Positions 532 through 19,211 of a DNA stretch of 64,000 nucleotides are shown piece by piece. This stretch comes from Bacteroidota bacterium (lineage in GTDB: Bacteria; Bacteroidota; Ignavibacteria; Ignavibacteriales; Melioribacteraceae). The translations under genes and the position numbers were made by a program. A model generated the notes under the pieces. It did no database searches and was not told the DNA's origin. It saw only the letters and a program-made list of their open reading frames with translations. The number at the start of each line of letters is the position of its first letter. Within the stretch, counting starts at the first letter, position 1. The DNA is taken from the NCBI GenBank assembly GCA_018829205.1, contig JAHJUE010000003.1:1-64000 (forward strand), given 5' to 3'.

Positions 532-2427
532 ATGAATGAAATAAAAATAATATGCGCTGTATTTGTTCTGATGATAACAAACATTTACTCTCAAAGCGAT
601 CCCGCTTTCCCAGCTCCTTTTGATAAAAGATTAAGTGAGCAGAATATTAAATCCGTTTGGGTAGAAAACGAATTTGCTGAAATATATCCCGTGCCGGTAA
701 AAGCGGAATATTCAGATACGTATTATAATTTGTATAACAAAGACTTTAATCCGGAAGCTGGCATTATTGTTAATACCAAATATGAAAAAAATGCGGCGGC
801 TACATTAAATAACCAGCTGTCAAAATATAATTACCCAGCGTTTCCTGTACTAAATTCGAATTTAAATGAATTCGAAAATTATAAAATATTAATAAAATTT
901 GATTCTTCGTTTAATGAGCTGAAACAATTCGGCGAGCAGGCCTATAAAATTAATTTCAAAGAAAATGAAAAAGTAGTAGTAGAGCTGTCGGGAGGAAGTG
1001 AAGTAGGATTAATTTATGCTTCAGTTTCGCTTGCACAATTAATTAACCGAAATGAAAATGAAATCCAGCTTAGAAAGGCAGATGTATTTGATTATCCAAA
1101 ATTTTCAAAAAGAATAATAAACAGCAGACCGGATCCATATCATCTTACTGAAGATCTGGACTGGATGCTTCGTTATAAAATTGAATGCATAACTTTTCAT
1201 AATATAGATTATTCCTGGTACGGCCCTGATGATGAGTTGAAAAAAAATCTTTCTATTTATAAAAAATGGAATGAAGAATTCGGAGGTGTCAGGTCTTTAT
1301 TGGTGCTTAACCTTTATACAGGCGATTACGATATTGAAATTACCAACGAGGATCATTTAAATCAGATAAAGGAATTTATTAAAGAGTCCTATCTGCACGG
1401 CGTAACACGTTTTATGATTAATGCAGATGATTCGCCTCCGTTTAAGTTCGGTGAAGGATATATACTTACTTCGCAAAAAGATAAGCAAAAGTTTTCAACG
1501 ATGGCCGAAGCACACTGCTGGTTAATGAATAATATTTATGAATGGGCAGGAAAAAATAAGTTTGATCTTGAATTAATGTATTGCCCCGGTTTTTATACAT
1601 ACGAAGAAATGCATTACGGCGATATGGAATTATTTAAAAATACACCTTGGGAAAATGACGCTTTCGGGCCGCTTAAACGTGATTTAAAAATCATCGGTGA
1701 AAAGATGAATAAAGATATTGAAATTATGTGGACAGGCCCTTTTGTTTGCACAAGAGTATTAACTGACGAAGATATTAGCGATTGGACAAATAATCTTCAA
1801 GGCAGGGTGCCTTTTCTTTTTGATAATACAATTTATTCGCAGCTTGAATTTACGACACGCTCAATGTTTACGGCGTATGAAAATGATTTTCCTAAAAACT
1901 TTTCGAGGAAAACAGGCGGTAACGGTATATTCCTAAACGGAGAAGGAGTTGGAGAAACCAGCCGTGCGCAATCAATGACAGCCAATGCATATATGTGGGA
2001 AGAAGATAGATATAATCCTAATGCGTCTTTGATGGCGGCAATGAGAAATCTGTACGGCAGCTCAAATATTAATTTATTGCTGAAATATAGAGATGTAGAA
2101 TTGGAGTTTTGCAAAACAATCAAACAAAGAGAACTTTGGTATGCGGCCGATGAATTATGGCAGTCTATAAGAAAGACAAGATTTATTACCGAAAAAAATC
2201 CTTTTTACTATCATCAGAATTACGGCAGATTAAAAGCTCTTAGACTGCAGCTGAAAAATTCAGTGCCTGAACCGGTTGAAATAAACGAATTTAAAAATAA
2301 ATGCTTTGAATTAAGAGACATAAGAAAATCATTGCTAAATGAAATTGAAAAGAATTCTTTCTACAGGTTAAGTTATTCATTGCAGTCGGAAATGGTAAAT
2401 GTCCCTTCATTTGAGGAAGCTAAATAA
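532..2427 (+). CDS. GH84-like beta-N-acetylglucosaminidase (hyaluronidase/O-GlcNAcase family), secreted
   Basis: A 631-residue protein with a Sec signal peptide (hydrophobic residues about 5-18, ending near IYSQ). Residues about 40-165 look like the alpha/beta domain that precedes the barrel in GH20 and GH84 enzymes. The barrel carries NADDSPPF with the adjacent Asp pair D299-D300, which matches the catalytic Asp-Asp pair used by GH84 in substrate-assisted hydrolysis of beta-GlcNAc. The later MWTGPFVCTR, ending in DW, and the ANAYMWEEDRYNP stretch also match GH84. The protein acts outside the cytoplasm, removing or cutting at beta-GlcNAc. It abuts its neighbours (start 2 nt after the upstream stop; stop 2 nt before the next ATG) and is closely related to the next gene. 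The exact substrate is unknown. Confidence 0.82.
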   Translation: MNEIKIICAVFVLMITNIYSQSDPAFPAPFDKRLSEQNIKSVWVENEFAEIYPVPVKAEYSDTYYNLYNKDFNPEAGIIVNTKYEKNAAATLNNQLSKYNYPAFPVLNSNLNEFENYKILIKFDSSFNELKQFGEQAYKINFKENEKVVVELSGGSEVGLIYASVSLAQLINRNENEIQLRKADVFDYPKFSKRIINSRPDPYHLTEDLDWMLRYKIECITFHNIDYSWYGPDDELKKNLSIYKKWNEEFGGVRSLLVLNLYTGDYDIEITNEDHLNQIKEFIKESYLHGVTRFMINADDSPPFKFGEGYILTSQKDKQKFSTMAEAHCWLMNNIYEWAGKNKFDLELMYCPGFYTYEEMHYGDMELFKNTPWENDAFGPLKRDLKIIGEKMNKDIEIMWTGPFVCTRVLTDEDISDWTNNLQGRVPFLFDNTIYSQLEFTTRSMFTAYENDFPKNFSRKTGGNGIFLNGEGVGETSRAQSMTANAYMWEEDRYNPNASLMAAMRNLYGSSNINLLLKYRDVELEFCKTIKQRELWYAADELWQSIRKTRFITEKNPFYYHQNYGRLKALRLQLKNSVPEPVEINEFKNKCFELRDIRKSLLNEIEKNSFYRLSYSLQSEMVNVPSFEEAK

Positions 2428-2428
2428 T

Positions 2429-4246
2429 ATGAAAAGAAAACTAAAAATTACACTTGCTTTGTACCTGATTTTCTTCACTGCGGTAATTATTGCTCAGCGC
2501 CAAGAGACTAATTCAATCAAATTGTCAATTCAGCCGGAACCAAAAGAAATCGTTCCGCTTAATAAATATTTTGATTTTAGAGATGAAAAATTTATTTCTT
2601 TGAATCCCGCAAGTTCTATAGAACATAAAGCGGCCGGCTATTTTAAACACCTATTGTTCGAAAAATTCGAAAATGAATTAACTGTTAACATAATTGATAA
2701 TAAATCAAATTCTTTTGTAAGAATATTATTTGAAAAAATAAATCAAGAATCCACCAGCCATAACAATCAATATTATGAAATTAAAGGTAATGCTGATAAA
2801 AAGGAAATACTGCTCAAATATAAATCCCAGCTTGGATTACTTTTTGCGTGTGTAACTTTATCTGAATATTTCCAAAAAGCCGAAAACGGAATAAAGCTTA
2901 GCTATTTCGATATAAAAGATTATCCGGATTTTTCAAGAAGAATAATATCGGCGATCCCGAAACCGGAAGAGGTTTTTGAACTAATGGATTTTGCATTAAA
3001 AAACAAAATTGAAACTATAGCTATTGGCAGCAGGCAATATCCGTGGTACAAAGCAAGCGATGAATTTAAAAAGTTATTTGCTGAAATAAGTTTATGGAAA
3101 AATAAATACGGCGGACCTAGTATTATGCAGATGCATAATATATACGAAGAAAAACATATTGAAATTTCGAACGATGATGATGTTAACGCTTTAAAAGAAG
3201 TTATTAAATTAGGTATTGATAATGGTGCCGATAAATTAATGATACTTGCCGATGATACTCCGCCTTTTAAGTTTGGAGAAGGATATATTCTAACAACTGA
3301 AAATGATAAGAAGAAGTTCAAACATATGGCTGATGCGCATTGTTATTTAATGAACGATATAAAAATTTGGCTGAATGAAAAATCATTGCAAAGCGAATTG
3401 TATTATGTTCCCCCATTTTATACCTATGAAGATATGCATTACGGCGATATGGAGTTATATAAAAATACAAGATGGGAAGATGACGCTTATAAACCAATTT
3501 ACAGGGATCTTAATTATTTGGGAGTTAATATTCCCGAAGATGTATTTATTATTTGGTGCGGTCCGTTTGTTAGAAGCAGAACAATTACTGCCGAAGATAT
3601 AAATGATTGGACTTACAATCTTAAAGGCATTACACCTTTTTTATGGGATAATACAATTTATAGCCACAACCCTTTTATCTCTTCTCCGTTATTTACGGCA
3701 TGGGATAATAATTTTCCTGCCGATTTTAAATTACGAACAGCGGGAAACGGAATGTTTATAAACGGCGCGGCTAATATGGAAGATTCAAAAGCAACTGCAA
3801 TTACGGTTAATGACTATATGTGGAATTCAAGTACTTATTCCGCCGAAAAATCTCTCAATCAGGCATTAAATAAACTTTATGGGAACAGCTCAAATCTTTT
3901 GCTGCAGTTAAGAGAAGTTGAACTCGAGTTAAGAAAAAAAATAGGTGAACGAGAACTTTGGTTCGAAAGTGATTCCCTCTGGAAAATTATAAGAAAGATC
4001 AGATTTATTCATTCAAAAAATCCGTTTGACTATCATTTAAATTACACCCGGTTAAAAGGATTGAGACTTCAGCTGAAGAACTCTGTTCCCGAACCTATTG
4101 ATAAAATTGAATTTATAAATCAATGCAATGAATTATATAAAAGAAGAAATGATATTATGTCGAATCTTCAAATTGAAATTCCTGAAGCGGCAGAAAGACT
4201 AAAAAAACTTTTATTGGAATTACCGGATTTCGAAAAAATTCAATAA
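2429..4246 (+). CDS. GH84-like beta-N-acetylglucosaminidase, tandem paralogue
   Basis: A 605-residue paralogue of the preceding gene, sharing the sequence around the catalytic Asp pair (LADDTPPFKFGEGYIL, D275-D276), the YTYEDMHYGDMELYKNT stretch and the C-terminal NYTRLKGLRLQLKNSVPEP segment. I chose the ATG at 2429 because it lies directly after the upstream TAA and begins a clean signal peptide (MKRKLKITLALYLIFF). A longer in-frame opening at 2399 would overlap the upstream gene and spoil the signal. The family hydrolyses terminal beta-N-acetylglucosamine by substrate-assisted catalysis. Having two copies side by side implies different linkages or chain positions on one polymer, which is inference. 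Confidence 0.82.
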   Translation: MKRKLKITLALYLIFFTAVIIAQRQETNSIKLSIQPEPKEIVPLNKYFDFRDEKFISLNPASSIEHKAAGYFKHLLFEKFENELTVNIIDNKSNSFVRILFEKINQESTSHNNQYYEIKGNADKKEILLKYKSQLGLLFACVTLSEYFQKAENGIKLSYFDIKDYPDFSRRIISAIPKPEEVFELMDFALKNKIETIAIGSRQYPWYKASDEFKKLFAEISLWKNKYGGPSIMQMHNIYEEKHIEISNDDDVNALKEVIKLGIDNGADKLMILADDTPPFKFGEGYILTTENDKKKFKHMADAHCYLMNDIKIWLNEKSLQSELYYVPPFYTYEDMHYGDMELYKNTRWEDDAYKPIYRDLNYLGVNIPEDVFIIWCGPFVRSRTITAEDINDWTYNLKGITPFLWDNTIYSHNPFISSPLFTAWDNNFPADFKLRTAGNGMFINGAANMEDSKATAITVNDYMWNSSTYSAEKSLNQALNKLYGNSSNLLLQLREVELELRKKIGERELWFESDSLWKIIRKIRFIHSKNPFDYHLNYTRLKGLRLQLKNSVPEPIDKIEFINQCNELYKRRNDIMSNLQIEIPEAAERLKKLLLELPDFEKIQ

Positions 4247-4264
4247 AAATATATTGGAGTGAAT

Positions 4265-5506
4265 GTGTCAAAATATTACTTAAAACTATTAGCAGCAATA
4301 TTTTTAATGCAAGGTTATATTTATCCGCAAGATGCTATATTATCCAAAGAAAGTGTTTTGCGCGCGATAACCGAAGGAGCAAATTACGCAACCGATATTT
4401 TACTAGATGAAAATGGAAAATCGAAATGTGACTATAATGTGATCGAAGGAAAATGGTATGAATATGAACCTCCCTGGCATACGGGGCAAATAATTGCTGG
4501 TCTGCTTGATGTATATAAAATAACAAAAAATGAAAAATATTTATCCCGCGCAAAACAAGCCGGCGATTGGTGGTGCGGTTTGTTAATTACTGATCATCCG
4601 AAGTTAAAAGGTATGCTTAACGCCGCGCACGGTGATGCCGCAGGTGAAACAATAATATTCGCGACTGTATCCGACGGTACCTTAGGATTATTCAACCTTT
4701 ATAAAATCACCGGCGATAAAAAATACGCCGAGGTTCCTACCAGCGCGGGTGAATGGATGATGAATAATATGTACGTACCAGAATATAAAGTTTTTTATGA
4801 CGCAATCGATCCGGTTACGGGAGAAGTTTTAAAACAAAATAGCCCGATAGCTGAAATTAAAGAATCAAAAGATTTGTTCAGTGTTTCCAGACCAAATAAT
4901 GAAGGTTCTCTTTTTAAAGATATGTATGAGTTTACAGGTGATGAAAAATATAAAAAGATGTTCATAGAATTATGCGAAAGTTTATTAATGTATCAAGGTC
5001 CTGAAGGTTTATGGATGGATTTCGGACCGAATAACAAAGCTGAAGGCAGTTTCCATCCAAGGTTCAATTTGTGGTATGCTGAGTCTTTAATGGAGGGATA
5101 CGACTTAACGGGGGATAAAAGATATTTAGCGGCAGCAAAAAAAACTTTATCCTTTTATACTAAATTTCAGAAAAGCGACGGTACAATTTATTATAAAAAT
5201 TATATAAATGGTAAATCCAATCAGAATTCAATATGCGGATCTGCTGTTTCTTTTGCGGGACTTTTATGGATTAGACTTATTGAATACGGCATTGGCGATG
5301 AGTTCAAGGAGAATGTTGAAAAATCAGCCGGCTGGGTTGTTAAAAACAGGTTCGCTCAGGATCATCCGGATCAGAATTTAAGAGGAGCATATTTAAATTT
5401 AAGAACAAGAAGAAAAGCAGATAAAGTATGGATGACGCAAAGAGATGTCGGCACTTCTTTCGGTATGCGGTTTCTTTCAAAATATTATGAATATAAATTC
5501 GATTAA
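4265..5506 (+). CDS. Secreted (alpha/alpha)6-toroid protein, six-hairpin glycosidase-like, specificity unknown
   Basis: About 413 residues with a signal peptide. The body is a series of helical hairpins with repeated YxxTGDxKYxxxA-type motifs (for example LYKITGDKKY and LTGDKRYLAAA), typical of (alpha/alpha)6-barrel enzymes such as GH88/GH105, epimerases and lyases. Aromatic and acidic residues line the hairpins (EPPWHTGQ, GLWMDFG, WYAESLMEGYD). I cannot place it in one family. The start is probably the GTG at 4265, because GGAG at 4256-4259 then sits 5 nt upstream; the in-frame GTG at 4259 overlaps that site. It lies between the GH84 pair and the permease gene in an unbroken operon, so it probably works on released uronyl or amino-sugar oligomers. 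That role is inferred. Confidence 0.6.
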   Translation: MSKYYLKLLAAIFLMQGYIYPQDAILSKESVLRAITEGANYATDILLDENGKSKCDYNVIEGKWYEYEPPWHTGQIIAGLLDVYKITKNEKYLSRAKQAGDWWCGLLITDHPKLKGMLNAAHGDAAGETIIFATVSDGTLGLFNLYKITGDKKYAEVPTSAGEWMMNNMYVPEYKVFYDAIDPVTGEVLKQNSPIAEIKESKDLFSVSRPNNEGSLFKDMYEFTGDEKYKKMFIELCESLLMYQGPEGLWMDFGPNNKAEGSFHPRFNLWYAESLMEGYDLTGDKRYLAAAKKTLSFYTKFQKSDGTIYYKNYINGKSNQNSICGSAVSFAGLLWIRLIEYGIGDEFKENVEKSAGWVVKNRFAQDHPDQNLRGAYLNLRTRRKADKVWMTQRDVGTSFGMRFLSKYYEYKFD

Positions 5507-5524: not shown

Positions 5525-6766
5525 GTGAATAAAACATTAAAGAAAATAAGTTTATTCCTGGCTACAATTGGTCCCGGACTTTTCCTTGTAGGGTATAATA
5601 TCGGAACAGGAAGTATAACTACAATGGCTTCGGCCGGTGCTTCACATGGAATGATTTTAACCTGGGCCGTATTAGTATCATGCGTGTTCACATATCTGCT
5701 CGTTGTAACTTTCGGAAGATTTACATTAATAACAGGCGAGAGTGCGCTTCAAAGCTATAAAAAACATTTCGGTAAATATACATCGGGGTTTGTTCTTGTA
5801 GTTTTAATATTTACTGAAATGGTTTCTAGTATCGGCGTTATGGCAATTGTTACCGATGTTGTTAAGGAATGGTCGCGCCCGCTTACGAGTGACGGCGATG
5901 GATTTAATTCAATAATTTTAACGGCTGTATTCGGCGGGACACTTGTATTTCTTCTTTTTAACGGCAGGTATAATTTCATCGAAAAGATATTAAGCGTTTT
6001 TGTTGCCTTGATGGGAATATGTTTTATACTTACAACATTTATGGTAATTCCTGATGCCGGAGCTGTAATAAGCGGTTTAATTCCCAGTATTCCCGCGGAA
6101 GCAAATGCAGGTTTAATTGTTGCCGGTATGATAGGAACTACTATGGGGGGAGTGCTGTATGTTACCCGTTCGATAACTATTAAACAGAAGGACTGGAATG
6201 TCTCTGACCTTAAGCTTGAAAAAAGAGACGCTTTTATTTCTTCAATGTTAATGTTCGTGTTAAGCATCGCTATTATGGCAGCAGCTGCCGGTACTCTTTA
6301 TCCGCTTGGATTGCATGTAGAAAATGCTATTGATATGATTAAACTATTGGAACCTTTGGCCGGAAGATTCGCTGTTTCTATATTTGTTGCAGGCATAGTA
6401 TGTGCGGGACTTTCTTCTTTGTTCCCTCATTACATGCTGGTTCCTCTGCTTCTTTCGGATTATTTCAATGAAGAATTTAATTTAAGCAAACCAAGAAACA
6501 GGGCTATCGTAATTTTCTACGCTGCTCTTGGTTTTGTTGTTCCTGTATTTGGCGGCAGGCCTGTTGTTGTTATGATTGCTTCGCAAGCGCTCGCTTTATT
6601 AATTACCCCGATGATTATTATCATGATGCAGGTAATTCAAAATAAAAGCGAAATTATGGGCAATTATAGAATGTCAAAAATAATGAACGTAGTATTAATT
6701 GTAATCTCGTTGTTTACTGTTTATATAGCTGTTGTAGGAATAATTGGAATTATTGAAATTTTCTGA
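5525..6766 (+). CDS. Nramp-superfamily permease without the metal-binding motifs; candidate sugar/organic acid transporter
   Basis: A 413-residue integral membrane protein with about 11 hydrophobic segments and the opening GPGLFLVGYNIGTGS, where true Nramp metal transporters have GPG followed by DPGN. The TM6 region reads AGMIGTTMGGVLYVTRS and has no MPH metal-binding motif. The fold is therefore that of Nramp/APC-type carriers, but the Asp, Asn and Met/His ligands for divalent metal are absent. It sits inside the glycan operon between a toroid enzyme and a cytoplasmic sugar isomerase, so import of a mono- or disaccharide product is a reasonable guess. The start is GTG at 5525, after AAAGGT; the ATG at 5520 is followed at once by a stop. 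Confidence 0.72.
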   Translation: MNKTLKKISLFLATIGPGLFLVGYNIGTGSITTMASAGASHGMILTWAVLVSCVFTYLLVVTFGRFTLITGESALQSYKKHFGKYTSGFVLVVLIFTEMVSSIGVMAIVTDVVKEWSRPLTSDGDGFNSIILTAVFGGTLVFLLFNGRYNFIEKILSVFVALMGICFILTTFMVIPDAGAVISGLIPSIPAEANAGLIVAGMIGTTMGGVLYVTRSITIKQKDWNVSDLKLEKRDAFISSMLMFVLSIAIMAAAAGTLYPLGLHVENAIDMIKLLEPLAGRFAVSIFVAGIVCAGLSSLFPHYMLVPLLLSDYFNEEFNLSKPRNRAIVIFYAALGFVVPVFGGRPVVVMIASQALALLITPMIIIMMQVIQNKSEIMGNYRMSKIMNVVLIVISLFTVYIAVVGIIGIIEIF

Positions 6767-6773
6767 GGAATAA

Positions 6774-7685
6774 ATGTATAACGAAAGAATTGTATGCGCA
6801 TATTTATATCCAATTACCAAGTACGGATATCCGCCTGATGCCGATAGGACGGTTGATTACCTAAGGGAAATGAAAGCACTTGGTTTTAAGAATGTTGAAC
6901 TTGAAGGCATAAGAGAATCTCATCTGCAGAAAGTATATGATTTAAAAGATAATATCGCGGAAAATATTATAAGCCTGGATCTTAATGTTTCTTATTTCTG
7001 CACAGTACTTCCGGGATTAAGTCTGCCTGATAAAAATACAAAACAGCAGCAGTTGGATTTGTTTGTTAAAGGTTGCGAAATAGCAAAACTATTCGGAGCC
7101 AAAGGTGTGCTTGATAATGCGCCGCTTCCGCCCTATAAATTTCCTGCGGATATTCCTGTCGTGCGGCACTATAATGACGAAATAATGAGCTCCGCTTATT
7201 TGCCGTTTGATTTAAACTGGGATGAATACTGGGATAACTTAATCAATACTTATAGGACAATTTGCGATATCGCTAAAGACTACGGGTTAACTTATCAGGT
7301 GCATCCGGCGCTTGGACTGCTTTCATCAACTACGGATTCGTTTCTATATTTCTATGACGCTGTAAAAAGAGACAATCTTCGCTTTAATCTTGATACCGCT
7401 AATCAATTTATCCTTAACGATAACCTTACGCTTGCTTTAAGAAGGCTTAAAGATCACATTGATTATATTCATATTTCAGATAACCGTGGCAAAAAACCGG
7501 AACATCTCGAAATTGGAAAAGGAATTATTAGATGGGATATATTCTTTGAAACTATTGATTTAATAAATTATAAAGGCTTAATCGGTCTGGATATCGGCGG
7601 TTCAGAATCTTCAATTGATAATCTTGATATTGCTTATAAAAATTCGGCGGACTGGTTAGAAAAAAATTGGTTGGGGAAAAAATGA
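6774..7685 (+). CDS. Sugar phosphate isomerase/epimerase-like TIM barrel (AP_endonuc_2 / xylose-isomerase-like)
   Basis: A cytoplasmic protein of 303 residues with no signal peptide. The pattern is that of the xylose-isomerase-like TIM barrel: LKALGFKNVELEGI-type first strand, TYQVHPALGLL with a likely metal-ligand His, LRFNLDTANQF with a ligand Asp, YIHISDNRG with a ligand His/Asp, and a final GLIGLDIGG strand. These enzymes isomerise or epimerise keto/aldo sugars with a divalent metal. ATG follows GAGGAA at a good distance. The stop overlaps the ATG of the next gene (ATGA), and the permease gene ends 7 nt upstream, suggesting that this enzyme handles the imported sugar. The exact substrate cannot be read from sequence. 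Confidence 0.75.
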   Translation: MYNERIVCAYLYPITKYGYPPDADRTVDYLREMKALGFKNVELEGIRESHLQKVYDLKDNIAENIISLDLNVSYFCTVLPGLSLPDKNTKQQQLDLFVKGCEIAKLFGAKGVLDNAPLPPYKFPADIPVVRHYNDEIMSSAYLPFDLNWDEYWDNLINTYRTICDIAKDYGLTYQVHPALGLLSSTTDSFLYFYDAVKRDNLRFNLDTANQFILNDNLTLALRRLKDHIDYIHISDNRGKKPEHLEIGKGIIRWDIFFETIDLINYKGLIGLDIGGSESSIDNLDIAYKNSADWLEKNWLGKK

Positions 7686-10264
7686 AAGAAAGAATAATTA
7701 AAATTGCAAAATATCTTTTTTTAATAACAGTACTATTTCATGTTTCCTCAAATGCTCAGGATAATATCCCTTCCGTAATTCCTCAACCTCAGGAATTTAG
7801 TTTCAATGATAATATACTTCAAATCAAAAATGTAAATTTAGATATAAAAAATTTCTACGGCATAAATGAATCTGTTGAAATTGCTCTTGAAGAACTTAAA
7901 AATGAATTTAAAAACAACGTAACATCTGATGATAATTTTAATAAATCTAATTTGGAAATCTTAATAGGTTTACCTGGTAAAGAAACAGGTTTTGATAAAA
8001 CATTAATGAAAAACGAACTAATGCCTATAGAAAAACTGGGTGATGAAGGGTACTATTTATTAATTGATTCTGTTAATATTATTATCTCGGCTAATGATAC
8101 TAAAGGATTGTTCTACGGTATTCAAACACTAAAACAATTAGTACGTGCGTCAAACAAAAACTATATTCGAGGCATCAAAATTTCCGATTGGCCTGATTAT
8201 AAATACCGAGCCGTATCTGATGATATAAGCCGCGGTCCAATTCCGACTCTTGATTTCATGAAATATCAGATAAGAAGATTTTCAGAAATGAAAATTAATA
8301 CAATTATTCATTATGTGGAACACGTTGTTAAAACTAAGAGTCACCCTGAATTTGCCCCTGATGACGGATCTTTAACAATTGATGAATGGAAAGAAATATC
8401 TGATTATGCAAAGAAGTATAATATTATGGTTATAGGAGGTTTCCAATCTTTCGGACATTTTAACAGAATACTGGAAACCCCGGAATATGCTCATCTGGGC
8501 GAGAGCGGGACGCTTATTTCACCGGTGTTAGATGAAAGTTATAGGTTTCTTGAGGACATTTATTCCGAAATGATTCCCGCTTTTGATTCTCCTTTCTTTA
8601 ATATTAATTGCGACGAAACTTTCGATTTGGGAAAAGAAAATTCTAAAGCGCTTGTCGATAGTATAGGTTACGACGGAGTATATTTTCAGCATATAATGAA
8701 ATTATACGACATCGTAAAAAAATATAATAAGCGTGTAATAATGTGGGGTGATATCCTTCTTGAGTATCCTAACCTTCTGGAAAAACTTCCTAAAGATATA
8801 ATTATTGGTACATGGACTTATGATCCCAAAGAAAGTTTTAAAGAATTTATTGAACCAATTAAAAACGCGGGCTTTGAGTTTTGGGTAGTTCCGGGCGTTC
8901 TTAATTCTTACCGTCTGTTTCCTAATTATTATCAAGCTCCTACTAACATCAAAAACTTCTCTGCCGACGGATACAAATACGGCGCTTCAGGATTATTAAA
9001 CTGCGTGTGGGACGACGGAGGATCAACATTGTTTACAAATGCATGGTACGGAGTATCTTACGGAGCAGATAAAAGCTGGAACTCAAAATCTTACGACGGA
9101 GATAATTTTGATACCAGGTTTAACAAAGGGATTTATGCGGCGGATAATAACTCTTTAACCGAAACAATTCATAAACTTACAGAACTAGCGTATCTTGAGC
9201 CAACCGACGGAATGTTCGATAAAATTCTTTTTGCTAAAACGCTTCCCGACGTAGGAAAACAAACCAGAATTTCATTGGATCAATGGGATCAGGTTTTAGA
9301 AATTATTAACGATGCCGAAAAACTTCTTGAGAATTTTACATGCAGGAATTATAAAAATGATCGAGAGTATCTGCAGTATGTTATTAATCTTTATAGAACG
9401 CTTGCTAATGAAAGAATGGATTTATTAGAAGCTTCAAATTTGTATGCAGAAGCTTATTCGGAGTATAATACAAATGCATTTGATGCACGCTCGAAAATAA
9501 TTCATTCAGTTAAATTGATCGATAAAATTACAAACAGTATTTACCGGATAAAAAATAATTTTGAAATTCTTTGGCTAAATGAAAATCATACGTATGCGTT
9601 GGATTGGACTACCGATAAATACTCGTTAAAATTAAATGAATACAAAGATGTCAAGAACAGACTGTTGACTTCATTAAGAAAATTGGACTCATCTTTACCT
9701 ATTTCTTCAAAGGAAGAAGTAAGACTTGCAGTTACAAAACTTCCCGGCAAATATTTCAGAGAATGGATGATGGTTAATCCTATTAATAAAAATCTAAAGG
9801 ATGAATCATTTAGTACTGATTATCTTGCTGATATGGGTGGTGAGGCAAACGCTGAACCAAAAGTTACGCAGGAATTTTATTATAACGGGCAAAAGTACAG
9901 GTGGAGAAGAGTTATTACTGATAATCCTGATATTATTGATTTGGTAGAATTATTTCCCGGCGCGAATGATGACGATGTAATGTATGCTTTTGCAAATATA
10001 AGTGTTGAAAACGATACGTTAGTTAAAGCATTAGCAGGAGCTGCCGGCAGTATAGAAATTTTTATAAACGGTAATAGTACATTAAATAATTCCGGTAATG
10101 ATAATCTTACACCTGATTCTTTTTCTTTTACAATTCCTTTGGCAAAAGGAAAAAATAATCTGCTCATTAAGATTTCTCGTACAGGGGAAAACTGGGGATT
10201 TACATTCAGACTTCCCGAATGTGAAGTTAGAAACAGTAAAAACCGTTATAGAGTTGTTAAATAA
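7682..10264 (+). CDS. GH20-like beta-N-acetylhexosaminidase with extra C-terminal domains, secreted
   Basis: An 860-residue exported protein. After the signal peptide (about residues 5-25) comes VIPQPQEFSF, the start of the GH20 N-terminal alpha/beta domain, then the barrel beginning near KYRAVSDDISRGP. The catalytic Asp-Glu pair is D311-E312 in FNINCDETFDLG. GH20 enzymes use this pair with the substrate's N-acetyl group to cleave terminal beta-GlcNAc/GalNAc; the usual preceding His-x-Gly-Gly is replaced here. Residues 510-700 are helical, and the last 150 form a beta-rich domain (about SIEIFINGNSTLN) resembling the N-terminal part of the GH105 protein encoded next. ATG 7682 overlaps the previous stop (ATGA) with GGGG upstream; an opening at 7667 is less likely. 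Confidence 0.75.
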   Translation: MKERIIKIAKYLFLITVLFHVSSNAQDNIPSVIPQPQEFSFNDNILQIKNVNLDIKNFYGINESVEIALEELKNEFKNNVTSDDNFNKSNLEILIGLPGKETGFDKTLMKNELMPIEKLGDEGYYLLIDSVNIIISANDTKGLFYGIQTLKQLVRASNKNYIRGIKISDWPDYKYRAVSDDISRGPIPTLDFMKYQIRRFSEMKINTIIHYVEHVVKTKSHPEFAPDDGSLTIDEWKEISDYAKKYNIMVIGGFQSFGHFNRILETPEYAHLGESGTLISPVLDESYRFLEDIYSEMIPAFDSPFFNINCDETFDLGKENSKALVDSIGYDGVYFQHIMKLYDIVKKYNKRVIMWGDILLEYPNLLEKLPKDIIIGTWTYDPKESFKEFIEPIKNAGFEFWVVPGVLNSYRLFPNYYQAPTNIKNFSADGYKYGASGLLNCVWDDGGSTLFTNAWYGVSYGADKSWNSKSYDGDNFDTRFNKGIYAADNNSLTETIHKLTELAYLEPTDGMFDKILFAKTLPDVGKQTRISLDQWDQVLEIINDAEKLLENFTCRNYKNDREYLQYVINLYRTLANERMDLLEASNLYAEAYSEYNTNAFDARSKIIHSVKLIDKITNSIYRIKNNFEILWLNENHTYALDWTTDKYSLKLNEYKDVKNRLLTSLRKLDSSLPISSKEEVRLAVTKLPGKYFREWMMVNPINKNLKDESFSTDYLADMGGEANAEPKVTQEFYYNGQKYRWRRVITDNPDIIDLVELFPGANDDDVMYAFANISVENDTLVKALAGAAGSIEIFINGNSTLNNSGNDNLTPDSFSFTIPLAKGKNNLLIKISRTGENWGFTFRLPECEVRNSKNRYRVVK

Positions 10265-10291: not shown

Positions 10292-12052
10292 ATGAGAACA
10301 TTAAAAATTAGTTTGCTTTTTCTTCTGCCGATGATTTTGTGCAGTTTTTATTTGATGAACGAACCAGACAGAAAGGCCTCCGATATCGCAAAATCGATTG
10401 TAGATAAAATAATTCGGGAATCCGAATTTGAATTTACAAATGTTATTAGACAGGAATCTGTTAATATGCAGATTGTTGATTTTAAGCATGAATACGGAAA
10501 TGAGCAAGGTATTTATTACGCCTATTCTAATATTCAAACGGATAAAGATACGGTATTACTTTTCGGATTAACTTATTCCGGCGGAATTAAAATATGGCTG
10601 AATGATGAGCTGATTGTAAATGATATATCAAATAAAAAAGCGGAAATAAAAGAAATTGCATATGGTCTATTTGATTTTCATTCTACAAAAAAAATAAAAT
10701 TAAACCGCGGCGATAATAAAATATTAGTCAAACAAATTAGCGGCGATCATAAACCCATATTCTTTATGCGTGAGGTTCCTTCAGAAGCCGAGTTGCCTTT
10801 AACTGCTAAATTTAAAAATCCCAAAATTGAATTATCTGATCAGAATAAAAATTGGCTTTTGACCGGACCTTTTCCTATAGAAGAAAATTTAAATAAAAGC
10901 CTGGAAAAATCTTATCCTCCTGAAAATTCAATTAGCAATTACTACAATTATGAAGGAAAAATTATTACTTGGAATATTCAAAAGGATGTAATGCTTCTCG
11001 AACTTTTTATAAATCAGAAGAACAGCTATAATAGAGAATCATATTTGGAATGGCATTACGCGAACGGCGCTACAATGTTTAGCGTTCTGAGCGCCGCGGA
11101 TAAATTAAAGAATGAGTCTTATAAAATATTCGTGAAAAAATTCTGTGACTTTACTGTTAATAATTACGAGTATTTTAACTATCAGTATAAAGAACTAAAC
11201 GCGCTTCGCGGTACTAATCACAGAATATTCAGGAAAACTATGCTCGATGATACCAGCGGGCCTGCGCTTCCGTTTGTTCAACTTTATCTTGACGAAAATT
11301 ACCAGCAATATAAATCTATTGTATTTGAGATGGCAGATTATGTAGAAAATGATCAAGTGCGGTTGAGCGATGGTACATTATGCAGACCTGAACCTGTTGA
11401 AATGACAGTTTGGGCAGATGATTTATTTATGAGCGTCCCCTTTCTTTTAAGAATGAGGAAAATTACAAATGAAAATAAGTATTACGACGACGCGGCTAAA
11501 CAATCATTAAAATTTTATGAAATTTTATTTGATGAAAATATTGGTTTATATAAACACGGATGGTTTCAAGAAAAAAATGAAAAATCAGTTGCGTATTGGG
11601 GAAGAGCCAATGGATGGATTGTTTGGGCAAACTCCGAATTGTTAATGCATCTTCCGAAAGAACATTCATCGTACAATATCATTTTGAAAAATTATAGAAA
11701 TCATATAAATGGACTAATCAAACAGCAAAGCGAATCGGGTATGTGGCATCAGGTTCTTGATAGGCATGATTCCTTTAAAGAAACCTCATGCACGTCAATG
11801 TATATAATGGGAATTTTAAGAGGTGTAAAAAACGGTTGGCTTGATAAATCCTACACTGAATACGCCTTAAAAGCGTGGCATGATGTTAAGAAAAATATAA
11901 AAGACGACGGTACTGTAATTGACATTTGCAGAGGAACAGGGATCGGATACGATCTTCAGTTTTATTTCGATAGAAAAAGATTTGATAATGATCCCCGAGG
12001 TTTAGGCGCTGTAATTCAGGCTGCTTTGGAAGTATCGGAAGTTCAGGAATAA
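10292..12052 (+). CDS. GH105/GH88-type unsaturated uronyl hydrolase with N-terminal beta-domain
   Basis: A 586-residue exported protein. Residues 1-20 form a signal peptide. About residues 60-200 form a beta-rich domain (GGIKIWLNDELIVND, then KIKLNRGDNKILVKQI), a galactose-binding-like module. The C-terminal 330 residues are an (alpha/alpha)6 barrel with the GH105/GH88 landmarks VWADDLFMSVPFLLRM (the Asp pair includes the likely catalytic acid), YWGRANGWIVWAN and TSCTSMYIMGILRG. The family hydrates the double bond of 4,5-unsaturated uronic acid at the end of lyase products, releasing it. Its presence implies a polysaccharide lyase acts upstream, and two lyase-like genes lie further down this locus. 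Confidence 0.8.
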   Translation: MRTLKISLLFLLPMILCSFYLMNEPDRKASDIAKSIVDKIIRESEFEFTNVIRQESVNMQIVDFKHEYGNEQGIYYAYSNIQTDKDTVLLFGLTYSGGIKIWLNDELIVNDISNKKAEIKEIAYGLFDFHSTKKIKLNRGDNKILVKQISGDHKPIFFMREVPSEAELPLTAKFKNPKIELSDQNKNWLLTGPFPIEENLNKSLEKSYPPENSISNYYNYEGKIITWNIQKDVMLLELFINQKNSYNRESYLEWHYANGATMFSVLSAADKLKNESYKIFVKKFCDFTVNNYEYFNYQYKELNALRGTNHRIFRKTMLDDTSGPALPFVQLYLDENYQQYKSIVFEMADYVENDQVRLSDGTLCRPEPVEMTVWADDLFMSVPFLLRMRKITNENKYYDDAAKQSLKFYEILFDENIGLYKHGWFQEKNEKSVAYWGRANGWIVWANSELLMHLPKEHSSYNIILKNYRNHINGLIKQQSESGMWHQVLDRHDSFKETSCTSMYIMGILRGVKNGWLDKSYTEYALKAWHDVKKNIKDDGTVIDICRGTGIGYDLQFYFDRKRFDNDPRGLGAVIQAALEVSEVQE

Positions 12053-12081: not shown

Positions 12082-12879
12082 TTGGAAATTAAATTTCATT
12101 TCAAAATTGATAACTTAAAAACAAAAGTACTTTTGGACAGGGAAGAACTGGGCAAAGAAGCTGCGTTTGATTTAGCGGCTAGAATTAAAGAACTGCATAA
12201 AATAAAAAATGAACTTAGAATAGTTTTTGCTGCAGCGCCTTCTCAAAATGAATTCCTTGAACAATTTGTAAAACATAACATTGAGTGGAATAGAATTTCC
12301 GCATTTCATATGGATGAATATCTTGGACTATGGAAAAATTCACATCAATTATTCAGCTACTATTTGAAAACTAACCTGTTTAATAAAGTAAAATTCAAAC
12401 AGGTAAATTATTTAAACTCGGTAAATGATGATAATAAATTGGAATGCAGGAGATATGCGGATTTATTAAATGAAGCGCCAATTGATATAGTTTGTATGGG
12501 AATAGGTGAAAACGGTCATATAGCTTTTAATGATCCTCCGGTCGCCGATTTCCAAGATATCGAATCAGTTAAAATAGTTGAGCTTGATCCGCCTTGCAGG
12601 CAGCAGCAGGTAAATGACGGCTGCTTTACTTCACTTAAGGATGTTCCAAAGTTTGCGTTGACTTTAACTATTCCCGCATTAATGTCGGCTGATTATCTCT
12701 CGGTTGTTGTTCCCGGCATTAGAAAAGCCGAAGCGGTTTATAGTACATTGTTTAATAGTATTACTACCGAATGCCCTGCTACTATCTTACGGACTCATAA
12801 TAATGTTATGCTTTATACTGATGAGGATTCATTCAGTATGGCTAAAAAGAAACTTATATCTAATAAAGAAGAGTTATAA
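12082..12879 (+). CDS. nagB: Glucosamine-6-phosphate deaminase-like protein (NagB family)
   Basis: A 265-residue cytoplasmic protein matching NagB: FHMDEYLG with the general-base Asp D78, and GIGENGHIAFNDP with H146. In the well-studied E. coli enzyme the second motif is NDGHIAFNEP, so here the catalytic Asp is Glu (E143) and the Glu is Asp (D151). That pattern suggests a divergent subgroup. The expected reaction is glucosamine-6-phosphate to fructose-6-phosphate plus ammonia, which would be the endpoint for GlcNAc freed by the GH84 and GH20 enzymes. The start is TTG at 12082 with AAGGA 6 nt upstream. No nagA or amino-sugar kinase is present in the window. A related lactonase/deaminase activity on another amino sugar phosphate is possible. 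Confidence 0.8.
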   Translation: MEIKFHFKIDNLKTKVLLDREELGKEAAFDLAARIKELHKIKNELRIVFAAAPSQNEFLEQFVKHNIEWNRISAFHMDEYLGLWKNSHQLFSYYLKTNLFNKVKFKQVNYLNSVNDDNKLECRRYADLLNEAPIDIVCMGIGENGHIAFNDPPVADFQDIESVKIVELDPPCRQQQVNDGCFTSLKDVPKFALTLTIPALMSADYLSVVVPGIRKAEAVYSTLFNSITTECPATILRTHNNVMLYTDEDSFSMAKKKLISNKEEL

Positions 12880-12880
12880 T

Positions 12881-15403
12881 ATGAAAAAATGTTTGTTTGT
12901 TGTTTTACTTTTTACTTTAAATATTTTATATGCGCAATCGATTCGTAAAATTCCGTATTTGTTTGATGCAGGGAGCAGGAGCTCACAAATAATAAATTAC
13001 GCTGAATTAATTTCTTTGGAATCATTGTATAATAAAACGTTGGGCTATGGATGGACCGTTTCGCCGGACTCTGTATTTTATAACGCACAGTTGGCTCATT
13101 CAACCTTAAGGAATGATTTAACTGCCGACGGAGTAATTGGTGAAGAAATTTCATTTAGAATAGATATCCCGAAAGGAAAATGGAATTTTACTTTTTGGAT
13201 GGAACAGGGATTGGAAGATGTAAATTCAGCCTCGCTTTTTATTAATGGTGCAAAAATAAATATTAACTGGCATCAGTTTCACAGTGACGGTGATAGAATA
13301 AATATTATCAGAAACTATTACCGTGTTTTTCAAACTCAAGTTGATTGCAATAACGGCTTTGAATTTAAAATAGCCGGCGGAAAAGATTTAGTTAGACTCT
13401 TAGGCTTTTCAATAATTCCGCTTGATACGGAATTAAAGAATAATTATTCACAGCTTAATAAAATTATTTACCAAACAGGAAAATATAAATCAAAGGTAAA
13501 CCCGGCCGATCTTGCTACCGCGATCAATGAAAAATTAAAGCAGGATCCGGAAGATTCATATTTGTTTTACTGGAAACAGCAGGCTGATTTATTAGCCGAA
13601 GCGGACAGACTCATTAATATGATGGGATGGGAATGGGCAAAACAATTAACCGGACTTTCAATTTTTGACAGGTTCCACCAGGCATTAAATATTCTTGACT
13701 CGCAGCTCGAACATTTTGACAACAGCGGTTATTTATTTCAAGAAAGAGCTTTATGGCTTAGAGGAAAGTTATGTTACGATTTATACAGGGAACGCGGGGG
13801 TAAATATACGTATTCAATAGCCGTCAAGGATTTATTTGACCTATATAAAAAATATCCGGGCGATATTCCGCTTAAAATGCTGAACGGAGCTAAAATTGAT
13901 TTTCCCGACGCATGTGATAACTTATCTTTTTCCCCGGAAGCGCCTCAATGGTCAAAACTTCAGCATGAATTAATTTGCAGGCTTGGCAATGAAATTGACT
14001 GGTGGGTAAATGAAAGACAAGCTCCGAACGGTGAATTAGGCGGTAAGATTGGAGATGATGTTGAATTATTGAGGTGGTGGTCGCCGTTTCTTTTATACGG
14101 GCATAAATCAACTATTAAAGGCTGGAAAAAACTAGCCGACGCGGTTTGGGAAGATCCTAAAGTATCTCTGGGTTATTCAAAAAACGTGCTTGACGTTGAA
14201 CACGCTTCGGAATATATATCAGATTCTACTCCAGAATTAATCTTTATTGATGAAGATTCAACATATTACAAAAGACTTTTTTACACCGCCGAACATTTTG
14301 AAAATCTTTGGAGTGTTAAACATGACGACGGCACAAGGTTTTTTAAATCCGCTTGGTACAGTTCAACTGAAGTTGATGAAGGCAAATATAAAAACAGAGA
14401 TGTTGATTACAATGCACGCGCGTTGAAGCCTTTACGATATTTAGCATGGTATACTCAAGACCAGCGATTTATTGATTTGCTTACTCAATGGTCAATGGGA
14501 TGGGTTAAAGCCGCATTAAGTACAGATAAAAACAAACCGAAAGGTTTGCTGCCGCCATCAATAAATGCTTACAGTAAAGAAATTAACGGTGAAGAGCCGG
14601 CTTGGTATAAATCCGGATTATATTATGATTATTTCAATTGGGAATTCTCCGTAGGATCTAAAATTCTTGATAATATTTTATTTACTTATTCGTTAAATAA
14701 AAACGACAGCCTGCTTTTGCCGATTGAATTAACTCTCGAATTAATTGAGTCTAAATTATCGGCTAATAATAATTTATTAAAAGAATCTTTTAGTGAAGGT
14801 AGCGAAGAATGGGCAGCGGTTAAAATTATAAATAATAACGGTTTTTGGAACGGTGTAGGCAAATGGAGATTTTTTACTAATAACAATAAATATGACGAAT
14901 TAATTCTCAAGTACGGAACAGATTATACTAAATTTAAATTAACCGGCGACGAATCCTATGTTGAAAACAACCTTGAAAAATCATTGGATAATTTGAGATA
15001 TAATACGCCGCTTCGTACTACCATGGTTGTTCATACAGATAGAGTGAGAACCCCGGGTACCGATAACTTAAAAGCAATGCTTGTTGGAGACGGAACATCG
15101 GAAGGAAGCTCACCTTATTATTCAATTACATGGGCGGACACGGACATTAACTTTACTGCGTTTGTAAAAAAATCTGAAAATGAGAATATTACAGCCGACT
15201 TGTTTTCTCATTCTTCAAATAAAACTAAAATCGGCGCAAAACTATGGCAGCTGAATTTCGGTGAGTATAAAATTACCCTTAGTGATAAAAAAGGTATTAC
15301 TCTAAGTGAAGAGGTTATAAAATTCAGCAAACCGGGAGAAAAGATATATTTAGAGATACCTGCACGTACATTAGTAAAATTAGTAATCAAAAAAAATAAT
15401 TAG
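12881..15403 (+). CDS. Large secreted PUL protein, beta-domain plus helical toroid, unrecognised family
   Basis: An 840-residue protein. ATG 12881 lies 2 nt after the nagB stop and opens a clear signal peptide ending at LYAQS; an in-frame opening further upstream lies inside nagB. Residues about 25-190 resemble a beta-sandwich, carbohydrate-binding-like domain (FDAGSRSSQ, GWTVSPDSVFYNAQ, FWMEQGLEDVNSASLFING). The rest is helical with conserved-looking acidic and Trp clusters (GELGGKIGDDVELLRWW, SAWYSSTEVDEGKYKNRDVDYNA, YDYFNWEFSVGSK), consistent with an (alpha/alpha)-barrel hydrolase or lyase, followed by a beta-rich tail. I do not recognise a named CAZy family. The operon context supports a role in glycan breakdown. 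Confidence 0.6.
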   Translation: MKKCLFVVLLFTLNILYAQSIRKIPYLFDAGSRSSQIINYAELISLESLYNKTLGYGWTVSPDSVFYNAQLAHSTLRNDLTADGVIGEEISFRIDIPKGKWNFTFWMEQGLEDVNSASLFINGAKININWHQFHSDGDRINIIRNYYRVFQTQVDCNNGFEFKIAGGKDLVRLLGFSIIPLDTELKNNYSQLNKIIYQTGKYKSKVNPADLATAINEKLKQDPEDSYLFYWKQQADLLAEADRLINMMGWEWAKQLTGLSIFDRFHQALNILDSQLEHFDNSGYLFQERALWLRGKLCYDLYRERGGKYTYSIAVKDLFDLYKKYPGDIPLKMLNGAKIDFPDACDNLSFSPEAPQWSKLQHELICRLGNEIDWWVNERQAPNGELGGKIGDDVELLRWWSPFLLYGHKSTIKGWKKLADAVWEDPKVSLGYSKNVLDVEHASEYISDSTPELIFIDEDSTYYKRLFYTAEHFENLWSVKHDDGTRFFKSAWYSSTEVDEGKYKNRDVDYNARALKPLRYLAWYTQDQRFIDLLTQWSMGWVKAALSTDKNKPKGLLPPSINAYSKEINGEEPAWYKSGLYYDYFNWEFSVGSKILDNILFTYSLNKNDSLLLPIELTLELIESKLSANNNLLKESFSEGSEEWAAVKIINNNGFWNGVGKWRFFTNNNKYDELILKYGTDYTKFKLTGDESYVENNLEKSLDNLRYNTPLRTTMVVHTDRVRTPGTDNLKAMLVGDGTSEGSSPYYSITWADTDINFTAFVKKSENENITADLFSHSSNKTKIGAKLWQLNFGEYKITLSDKKGITLSEEVIKFSKPGEKIYLEIPARTLVKLVIKKNN

Positions 15404-15414
15404 GGAATGTGAAA

Positions 15415-16578
15415 ATGAAAAGATTAGCATCCGTAAAATTTATATGCGTATTAATGATATTATTAATGAACGGAGCTATAAATTCGCAAAGTAACATTGG
15501 GAAAATATTCCCAAGTGAAATGACCAGCTGGGTCGATTCAACCACCGGTTATGAAATTACTAAGTGGACAAATGATAAAACTAAAAGCTGGCATTTGTAT
15601 TTTAATATTGAATCTTTTATTGATAATGATAATGCAATTATATTCTCGGAAAGAGGCGGGAATAAAAATTTATTTATTCTGAATTTCCCAACAGGTCAAA
15701 TAACCCAGATCACGGATGAAGAAGAAATGGACAGCGATGTTTGGCACTTATCTAACCTTAAAACTCTTTGGTATTTATCCGGAAATAAAATAAAATCATT
15801 AAATACTGAAACTTATAAGTCAACAGTTGTAACAGAGTTTGAAGGATTTATCGAATCGTTTACCGTTTCAAGCGACGGGAAGTATATTGTTTACGCGCTG
15901 AATAAGAATCCGGGATTTACTGAAGAACATAGCACGGGTCCATACGCAATATTTAAATATAATATTGAGACAAAAGAAACTGAACAGGTATCACCTGACT
16001 ATGGATTTATTATTAGTCATCTTCAGGCGAATCCCGTTAATCCTAATATTGTAATGTATTGCTGGCAGCATAGATATAAAGAAGGAAGTTCGGGAATTGT
16101 AGGCAATACGCCTCAAAGAATCTGGTGGCTTAATATTAATCAGGAAGAAGGCGGTCCGGTTGGAATTCAGGAATTCGGCATACATAGGACACATGAATTC
16201 TGGTTCCCAAACGGTGAATGGATAGGTTATTCAGCAAGATATATTTTCGGATCTAAAAAAGGACAGCAGTTTTTAGGCTGCTCTAAATTCGACGGTTCGG
16301 ATAGCTATAAAATGCCGGCTCCTGTTTTATTCGCACATTCTCAAATGTATAAAGATAATAAACATTGGGTAGCTGATTATTATGACGGTATGAATCTTGT
16401 CCTATTCACGGTTGAAAACAGGGAAATAACCCATACGGAATTGTTATTTAAACACGATTCAAGCTGGGAAGGGCAGCCAAGCCACCCGCATCCTCATTTT
16501 AGTCCTGACGGAAAACGAATCTTGTTCAGTACGGATAAGTCGGGCGTTGCAAATGTGTACTCTATTACTCTTAAATAA
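15415..16578 (+). CDS. PL22-like oligogalacturonate lyase (seven-bladed propeller), secreted
   Basis: A 387-residue exported protein (signal peptide ending near INSQS) made of TolB-like propeller blades (SSDGKYIVYAL, HFSPDGKRILFSTDKSG). Near the end, QPSHPHPHFSPDG places Q354, H357 and H359 with exactly the Gln-x2-His-x-His spacing known for the Mn-binding site of oligogalacturonate lyases of family PL22. HRTHEFW, another conserved PL22 segment, contains H257 and H260. The family cleaves short 1,4-linked uronates by beta-elimination, giving 4-deoxy-unsaturated products. Known members are mostly cytoplasmic, so the signal peptide is notable. The ATG at 15415 is preferred to the GTG at 15409 because GGGA at 15403-15406 is well spaced for it. 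Confidence 0.78.
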   Translation: MKRLASVKFICVLMILLMNGAINSQSNIGKIFPSEMTSWVDSTTGYEITKWTNDKTKSWHLYFNIESFIDNDNAIIFSERGGNKNLFILNFPTGQITQITDEEEMDSDVWHLSNLKTLWYLSGNKIKSLNTETYKSTVVTEFEGFIESFTVSSDGKYIVYALNKNPGFTEEHSTGPYAIFKYNIETKETEQVSPDYGFIISHLQANPVNPNIVMYCWQHRYKEGSSGIVGNTPQRIWWLNINQEEGGPVGIQEFGIHRTHEFWFPNGEWIGYSARYIFGSKKGQQFLGCSKFDGSDSYKMPAPVLFAHSQMYKDNKHWVADYYDGMNLVLFTVENREITHTELLFKHDSSWEGQPSHPHPHFSPDGKRILFSTDKSGVANVYSITLK

Positions 16579-16611
16579 ATAGATAGCACATCATATAATT
16601 TGAGGTAGGTT

Positions 16612-17631
16612 ATGAAAAGAATAATACTTTTCGTGTCCCTCATTGTATTTATTTTTTTATTAGTTGGGGGTTGTTCTTCGTCAATTATTTCTCCGCCTGT
16701 ATTGCTCAACGGGTGTCAGCCGTTTTACCCGCTAGAAGCTAGGATTAAAAATCTTAAAGGCGATGTTACATTACTTCTAAATATTTCTGAAAAAGGTTCC
16801 GTTTCAAAAGTTAGTGTAAAAAAATCTTCCGGTTCGGAAATACTTGATAATGCGGCGGAAAGATACGCTAAAAATTTAACTTTTAAACCGGCGAATAATA
16901 GTATACGCGATATCCCGGCTTCGGTAATATGGATTGTAAAATTTATTCCCGACAACGTGTCGTACCGGATTAAAGATTTTAATGTTCTTGTTTTTTCAAA
17001 AACTTCAGGGTACAGGCATCAGTCAATTGAAAAAGGAATGAGCGCATTAAAAACTATGGCGCTTGAAAATAATTTTGAAATTGATTTCACTGAAGATTCT
17101 ACAATGATAACGGATAAAATATTATCAAACTATAAGGTGATTGTTTTTCTTAATACTTCTGGAAACGTTCTTGGAGTAAATGAAGAAAACTCGCTTGAGA
17201 ATTATATAAAAAATGGGGGAGGATTTGTAGGAATTCATGCCGCGGTTGATACTGAATATGATTGGTCCTGGTACGGTAAAATGATCGGCGCCTATTTCAG
17301 CGATCACCCCGAAATACAGAAAGCTACTGTTAATGTTGTTGATAAGAATAATGTTTCAACAAAACATCTTCCGGATAAATGGGAAAGAATTGACGAATGG
17401 TATAATCTTAAAAACCAACTTGATGAGAACATAACAGTACTTGCCAACATTGATGAATCAACATACAGCGGTGGAACAATGGGAGATAAACATCCGTTCA
17501 GCTGGTGCCATAATTTTGACGGCGGACGAGTATGGATTACTTTAGGAGGTCATACGGAGGAAAATTACAGCGAAATCAATTTCCTTAAACATATACTTGG
17601 CGGTATAAAATACGCTGCGGATAATAATTAA
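16612..17631 (+). CDS. Lipoprotein fusing a TonB C-terminal-like domain to a ThuA-like domain
   Basis: A 339-residue protein. Residues 1-21 form a lipoprotein signal with lipobox VGGC (C21). Residues about 38-115 match a TonB C-terminal domain (FYPLEARIKNLKGDVTLLL, then VKKSSGSEILDNAA and LTFKPA). Residues about 120-335 match the ThuA-like, glutamine-amidotransferase-fold domain (DFNVLVFSKTSGYRHQSI, GGGFVGIHAAVDTEYDW, GGRVWITLGGHTEENY). ThuA-type domains recur in sugar-catabolic loci and are linked to oxidised-sugar metabolism. The TonB-C part has no transmembrane/proline-rich TonB N-terminus, so it is unlikely to power transport by itself. The combination is unusual and its function is unknown. 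Confidence 0.75.
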   Translation: MKRIILFVSLIVFIFLLVGGCSSSIISPPVLLNGCQPFYPLEARIKNLKGDVTLLLNISEKGSVSKVSVKKSSGSEILDNAAERYAKNLTFKPANNSIRDIPASVIWIVKFIPDNVSYRIKDFNVLVFSKTSGYRHQSIEKGMSALKTMALENNFEIDFTEDSTMITDKILSNYKVIVFLNTSGNVLGVNEENSLENYIKNGGGFVGIHAAVDTEYDWSWYGKMIGAYFSDHPEIQKATVNVVDKNNVSTKHLPDKWERIDEWYNLKNQLDENITVLANIDESTYSGGTMGDKHPFSWCHNFDGGRVWITLGGHTEENYSEINFLKHILGGIKYAADNN

Positions 17632-17650
17632 ACTGATAGGGAGTATTTAA

Positions 17651-18640: not shown

Positions 18641-18652
18641 TTCGGAGTAATA

Positions 18653-19201: not shown

Positions 19202-19211
19202 GAGAAATTGA

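Follow-up and report, generated by a model that had tools for sequence, protein, structure and literature searches.

A permease gene lying in a glycan-degradation operon of the 64,000-nucleotide stretch analysed here (the window) encodes an Nramp-fold protein that has lost its metal ligands. The protein belongs to a separate clade of the Nramp family, here called S, whose genes are linked to sugar genes, with no metal family in the neighbourhood tallies. Nramps are a textbook family of metal transporters, and the permease of the window is likely to be a secondary carrier whose solute is a free monosaccharide or a sugar acid. What is new is the sugar-linked branch; ligand loss in Nramp-related proteins was already known, and proteins of this kind without the DPGN and MPH motifs have been published, mostly as uncharacterised (PMC12873925, PMC8806188).

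A complete Nramp-family protein without the metal ligands

The permease open reading frame (Table 1) is preceded by AAAGG and encodes a complete, full-length Nramp-family protein, scoring about 195 bits against the Pfam profile PF01566 (cut-off 29.8); it is the only PF01566 protein in its genome. An AlphaFold model (pLDDT 77, pTM 0.80) was matched best in the PDB by EleNRMT (TM 0.81-0.83), then by BfraNramp and DraNramp, with APC amino-acid carriers as the next fold matches after the Nramp structures. Profile score and fold place the protein in the Nramp superfamily (PF01566, LeuT fold), in agreement with the Nramp layout described in the first-pass annotation.

An in-register alignment with DraNramp pairs D56-P-G-N59 of TM1 with G27-T-G-S30 of the window protein, and A227, M230 and H232 of TM6 with T205, G208 and V210. 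The A-x-x-M-P-H motif is thus replaced by T205-T-M-G208-G-V210, as had been proposed, and the MPH site itself reads GGV (208-210). The loss of DPGN was also called correctly by the first-pass annotation, but the replacement that it gave, NIGTG, is offset by two positions, the true one being GTGS. The canonical Nramp/MntH signature (DxxN in TM1, A/CxxM-P-H in TM6) is absent from the window protein and from all 42 S proteins. At the position of the canonical TM3 Glu (E134 in DraNramp, E116 in BfraNramp) the window protein has V105, an assignment that depends on the TM3 register, which one alignment gapped against the canonical sequences. A gapped profile-profile alignment can also place M207, which is not conserved across the S clade, opposite the canonical Met (M230). 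Realignment recovers this Met at most; judged from the aligned sequences, the Asp, Asn and His ligands are missing under either alignment.

The same substitutions run through the clade. The TM1 Asp is Gly, the TM1 Asn is Ser and the TM6 Ala is Thr in 42 of 42 aligned S proteins, and the TM3 Glu position is hydrophobic (Val, Ile or Leu) in every one; by contrast, 22 of 22 canonical and NRMT sequences retain the Asp in TM1, and all of them have Glu or Asp at the TM3 position. The loss of the metal site, claimed at first for a single protein, therefore holds clade-wide. Over the five ligand positions the summed residue volume, calculated with standard values, drops by about 160 cubic angstroms, from about 630 to about 471, and the smaller residues could make room for a larger solute.

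A second TM3 position, 98, is Glu in 21 of 21 sequences of the S1 (window) and amino-sugar types, Gln in 12 of 12 of the alginate/sugar-acid type (with locus L112 counted there) and Val or Ile in 9 of 9 of the E. coli type. The residue at this position correlates with subclade, and may be functionally meaningful. An argument for a Na+ site from the A-x-x-S-S/T pattern of TM8 was dropped because proton-coupled canonical Nramps keep a nearly identical pattern.

Phylogeny and distribution of the S clade

Homologs were collected from the relatives, phylum, class and other sequence collections. A single-sequence search of the genome contigs gave no homologs, which an alignment-based search then recovered; plasmid searches returned mostly other Nramp branches and one useful E. 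coli match. The 42 proteins sharing I/V-G-T-G-S in TM1 form one clade, defined here as S (IGTGS, no TM1 Asp, no TM3 Glu), and the window protein carries the motif and falls within it. Support was 0.81 (FastTree SH) on 103 sequences. In IQ-TREE, where the bootstrap values rest on a thinned set of 58 sequences and not on the full 103, S formed a single clade at UFBoot 100, and canonical, NRMT and PxpT sequences all fell outside it. Four subclades, namely S1, amino-sugar, alginate/sugar-acid and E. coli type, each received UFBoot 100, and the NRMT, PxpT and GAGD-type proteins were each separate, also at 100. The comparison with metal-transporting and Nramp-related transporters called for in the first-pass annotation thus sets S apart.

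Orthologs were found in Melioribacter roseus and in Melioribacteraceae and Ignavibacteriales MAGs, which places the window's genome in that group. The E. coli member (about 42% identity) is present in 547 of 5,426 complete genomes (~10%). Its locus is bounded by dnaB and qorA, and its operon also contains genes for a LacI regulator, a CoA transferase, an enoyl-CoA hydratase and an FAD oxidoreductase. One E. coli record deposited as plasmid pBone7_3 (CP054241.1, 797196-818382; L135) carries the chromosomal genes dnaB, alr, tyrB and dusA; its S-type Nramp copy matches in two pieces with no annotated gene, whereas many E. coli chromosomes have intact copies. In the trees, another Nramp-related group lies near S (L039, L040, L042, L043, L050); its TM1 motif is GVGAGD. 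The control set that included these loci also contributed Gfo/Idh/MocA genes, so the group may be another organic-solute branch.

The window protein and the five other S proteins tested all exceed the cut-off of the NCBI equivalog NF037982, 'Nramp family divalent metal transporter'. Because NCBI's automatic annotation gives that name to any protein above the cut-off, S members are routinely labelled metal transporters, as had been suspected.

Comparison with known Nramp-related systems

S shares topology and fold with the canonical MntH/Nramp clades A, B and C and with eukaryotic NRAMP, at about 18-23% identity, but has lost all DPGN/MPH ligands and the TM3 Glu, and has no link to DtxR, FeoA or FeoB. 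EleNRMT belongs to the NRMTs, Nramp-related Mg2+ transporters; its site is non-canonical, and it carries both Mg2+ and Mn2+ (PMC8806188). NRMTs resemble S in PF01566 membership, Nramp fold, a Thr at the A227 position and the lack of the canonical DxxN/AxxM signature. The two groups differ at three sites, however: the TM1 Asp is retained in NRMTs (DxxG) but is Gly in S, the TM3 residue is acidic in NRMTs and hydrophobic in S, and the His position is aromatic in NRMTs and mostly Val or Ala in S. NRMT-type loci adjoin MgtE and S loci sugar genes. Assignment of the window protein to the NRMTs was rejected: of their signature (DxxG in TM1, TxxA/T in TM6) it has T205, but G27 is not Asp and position 208 is Gly, the acidic TM3 residue is missing, and the two groups are separate clades with UFBoot 100 each.

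PxpT, a PF01566-type protein, is needed for growth on 5-oxoproline (PMC13274462), which sets a precedent for an organic substrate in this family. Its B. subtilis homolog YcsG has been reported as a Mn importer, MntG, despite its operon (PMC10448178), and caution is therefore needed in reading a substrate from gene context. PxpT and YcsG are Nramp-family proteins without the TM1 Asp, as is S, and are encoded in a catabolic operon, with an organic substrate indicated by genetics. They differ from S in their IGPGT and IGTTVVPYN motifs, in flanking pxpABC genes and in forming a separate clade (UFBoot 100). Membership of the window protein in this group was rejected on the same grounds, its motif being IGTGS and its neighbours different.

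The paraphyletic 'G-motif' groups have been called entirely uncharacterised, except for MntG (G-motif 3) and EleNRMT (PMC12873925). They lack the metal and proton residues, as does S, which probably falls in one of them. For Alteromonas sp. 76-1, a supplementary figure on its alginolytic systems shows a gene inside an alginate utilisation cluster that the legend names 'Nramp, metal-ion transporter' (PMC6431674). By this legend the gene is placed as some S genes are; it is labelled a metal carrier and goes undiscussed in the main text. Among the papers searched for Nramps in connection with alginate, uronates, sugar acids or the use of polysaccharides, none proposed a sugar role.

The operon in the window

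The permease gene is one of at least 17 plus-strand genes that follow each other at intervals below 100 bp, in a run that starts with the contig and reaches about 25.5 kb (Table 1). Because the contig begins at base 1 of the window, the operon is cut off at its upstream end. The immediate neighbours are as the first-pass annotation described them, an alpha/alpha-toroid-like protein upstream and a sugar isomerase-like protein of the AP_endonuc_2 family downstream; the closest solved relatives of the latter, all weak matches, are MJ1311 and D-tagatose 3-epimerases.

Table 1 Features of the permease gene and its operon (window coordinates)
Feature	Position	Strand	Basis or remark
GH84-like (NAGidase domain) protein, copy 1	532..2427	+	Pfam
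GH84-like (NAGidase domain) protein, copy 2	2399..4246	+	Pfam
Alpha/alpha-toroid-like protein, signal-peptide-like N-terminus	4259..5506	+	weak GH88/GH127/GH76 matches
Nramp-family permease, IGTGS (S) clade	5525..6766	+	413 aa, GTG start
G27-T28-G29-S30 codons, replacing canonical DPGN (TM1)	5603..5614	+	alignment
E98 codon (TM3), invariant in S1 and amino-sugar subclades, Gln in alginate/sugar-acid subclade	5816..5818	+	
V105 codon (TM3), metal/proton-pathway Glu in canonical and NRMT proteins	5837..5839	+	alignment
G204-T-T-M-G-G-V210 codons, replacing canonical G-A-x-x-M-P-H (TM6)	6134..6154	+	alignment
AP_endonuc_2 (xylose-isomerase-like TIM barrel) partner	6774..7685	+	Pfam
GH20-type beta-N-acetylhexosaminidase-like protein	7667..10264	+	
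GH88-family protein	10292..12052	+	
NagB-like glucosamine-6-phosphate isomerase/deaminase family protein	12082..12879	+	
Uncharacterised protein, homologs beside permease in Bacteroidota loci	12704..15403	+	no Pfam match
Rest of same-strand glycan run: PL22-like, ThuA, aldo/keto reductase, GH2, GH28, GH88, others	15409..25533	+	

Three side observations concern this run. Two GH84-like paralogs lie side by side in tandem at 532-4246, and the product of 16612-17631 combines, unusually, a ThuA domain with a TonB C-terminal-like domain on the N-terminal side (residues 36-108). The third is the 899-aa product of 12704-15403, which had no Pfam match and no convincing PDB match and so gives no help in identifying the glycan. 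As called, its reading frame overlaps the NagB-like gene by 176 bp, and homologs lie immediately upstream of the Nramp gene in six Bacteroidota loci (L096, L097, L099-L102). The protein is probably a secreted, uncharacterised enzyme acting on glycans, and its true start probably lies further downstream.

Most S genes lie beside sugar genes

Pfam families were tallied over genes within three of each Nramp gene. Canonical loci gave Fe_dep_repr (13), FeoA (13), FeoB (4) and FUR (4), and the NRMT and other non-canonical loci gave MgtE_N (7) and CBS (7); these control tallies recover known functions, which indicates that the method works. The S1 loci yielded AP_endonuc_2 (11), GH2 (10), GH20 (10), GH88 (9), SSF (8), SusC-type (5), GH127 (5), NagB (2), GH84 (2) and UxuA (1). 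The remaining S loci, in a tally from which L107 (sugar-type) and L164 (not of sugar type) are excluded, gave SDR (6), GH109 (4), BNR (4), PfkB (4), KDPG aldolase (3), UxuA (2), PL6 (Pfam 'Chondroitinas_B'; 2), alginate lyase (2), PFK (2) and RraA (2).

The isomerase recurs with the permease. In S1, counted by hand from search outputs, 18 of 19 loci had an isomerase ortholog (~52-68% identity), which in 12 of them directly follows the permease gene, and GH20 and NagB occurred in 16 and 10 of the stretches read. The loci with the isomerase come from Melioribacteraceae, Bacteroidota, Microbulbifer, Pseudokordiimonas and Emcibacter, and so from Ignavibacteria, Bacteroidota and Proteobacteria. With about four AP_endonuc_2 genes in the window's own genome, adjacency by chance is expected at a rate of roughly 0.1%, and the pairing, which recurs in 18 of 19 orthologous loci, is not due to chance. 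The survey thus bears out the repeated association with sugar isomerase genes anticipated by the first-pass annotation; the link to sugar genes is kept over wide evolutionary distances, and metal genes are absent from the S neighbourhoods. In the Bacteroidota loci L096 and L099-L102, a recurring pair of genes lies between the Nramp and isomerase genes, encoding a GATase1_like protein (~265 aa) and a 497-aa SSF symporter.

Elsewhere in S, genes were named partly from N-terminal sequence and partly from Pfam. Loci of the L106/L160 type carry an alginate lyase or oligo-alginate lyase, an MFS hexuronate-type carrier, SDRs, a KDG kinase and a KDPG aldolase; L160 has PL17, MFS, SDR, KDG kinase and KDPG aldolase genes and L106 is similar. 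DgoK/DgoA-like and gluconolactonase-like genes were found at L103, GH109-type or NagB genes at L104, L109 and L161 (NagB at the latter two), mannonate dehydratase at L083, L167 and L169, and a mannose-6-phosphate-isomerase-like gene at L162 and L168. Among the neighbour genes read, no sugar context was seen at L112 or in the L164-L166 lineage.

These neighbourhoods bear on whether the permease is a divalent-cation carrier, for Mg2+ or Mn2+ and resembling the NRMT uniporters, that supplies a metal cofactor to operon enzymes such as the xylose-isomerase-like protein. Characterised relatives of that enzyme use Mn2+/Co2+. The closest solved relative of the permease by both sequence and fold is a Mg2+/Mn2+ carrier, EleNRMT, which moves these ions through a non-canonical site (PMC8806188); YcsG is a reported Mn importer (PMC10448178), and E98 of TM3 is invariant in the window's subclade. 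We nevertheless consider a metal carrier improbable. The TM1 Asp and acidic TM3 residue that NRMTs keep are missing from 42 of 42 S sequences, and a DtxR-type repressor, found by BLAST at 15 of 21 canonical loci, was found at 0 of 42 S loci. The metal-regulator neighbourhood of canonical Nramp/MntH genes (DtxR/MntR, Feo) is thus not seen at S loci, and no metal family appears in the listed S tallies (genes within three). S loci also span unrelated pathways that share sugar-type substrates with no obvious metal need, and the window's own genome carries FeoB-type genes.

A proposed route for a sugar or sugar acid

The permease would be an inner-membrane, alternating-access carrier of the LeuT/Nramp fold whose cation site has been turned into a Gly/Thr-rich pocket for a small organic solute. 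Predicted secreted or periplasmic glycosidases (GH20, GH84-like, GH88, GH2) would free monosaccharides, and the carrier would import one product, a non-phosphorylated sugar or sugar acid, into the cytoplasm. There the adjacent isomerase, weakly related to enzymes acting on free ketoses, would act on the imported sugar and, with the NagB-like enzyme, pass it into metabolism. We infer the solute, the coupling ion (H+ or Na+), the direction of import and the subcellular sites of the enzymes; for S1 an amino sugar or a uronic or aldonic acid is favoured, with no choice made between them.

The main weakness of a sugar-import role is that other carriers often share these clusters: SSF in many S1 loci (8 members within three genes), an MFS carrier at the alginate loci and a TRAP system at L089. 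The Nramp may therefore not be the main sugar importer, and two solutes or a different role are possible. The permease could export an inhibitory intermediate, or act as a sensor, while the SSF, MFS or TRAP carriers import, although this seems very unlikely. In the stretches read, L091, L092 and the sequenced part of the window operon show no other obvious sugar carrier nearby, and no second transporter was found among the genes scanned in the window run (contig start to ~25.5 kb). Most characterised Nramp-fold proteins, moreover, are importers.

The cargo might also be a non-sugar organic solute accompanying glycan breakdown, such as a carboxylate, an amino-acid derivative or an amide, comparable to 5-oxoproline for PxpT. 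That precedent speaks for such a solute, as does the acyl-CoA-type operon of the E. coli member, whose CoA-transferase and enoyl-CoA hydratase genes suggest that substrates within the clade may exceed sugars. In addition, the I-G-x-G-S of TM1 resembles the carboxylate-binding glycine motif of APC amino-acid carriers, the next fold matches of the model. We still regard a non-sugar solute as unlikely for the window permease, as S and PxpT are separate clades, pxpABC genes flank the PxpT-type locus L114 but were seen neither in the window operon nor in the S1 tallies or other S loci, and nearly all S1-linked genes serve saccharides.

A carrier for a sugar or sugar acid thus remains our preferred reading of the window permease. 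More tentatively, and with somewhat less than even confidence, the S branch as a whole may carry carbohydrates, sugar acids and related organic solutes, with a single TM3 residue tuning the solute class. On this tentative extension, Glu would mark amino-sugar, Gln alginate/KDG and Val or Ile E. coli-type contexts. The branch is spread over Ignavibacteria, Bacteroidota, Planctomycetes and Alpha- and Gammaproteobacteria, including ~10% of complete E. coli genomes.

If the branch does carry sugars or sugar acids, the divalent metal transporter labels derived from NF037982 are wrong for S, and its members would be new candidate genes for the inner-membrane steps of alginate, uronate and amino-sugar catabolism. 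S would then also be a natural experiment in how a single fold that binds a bare cation comes to accommodate an organic solute the size of a hexose. The role of the uncharacterised Nramp-related groups becomes directly testable in ordinary laboratory bacteria.
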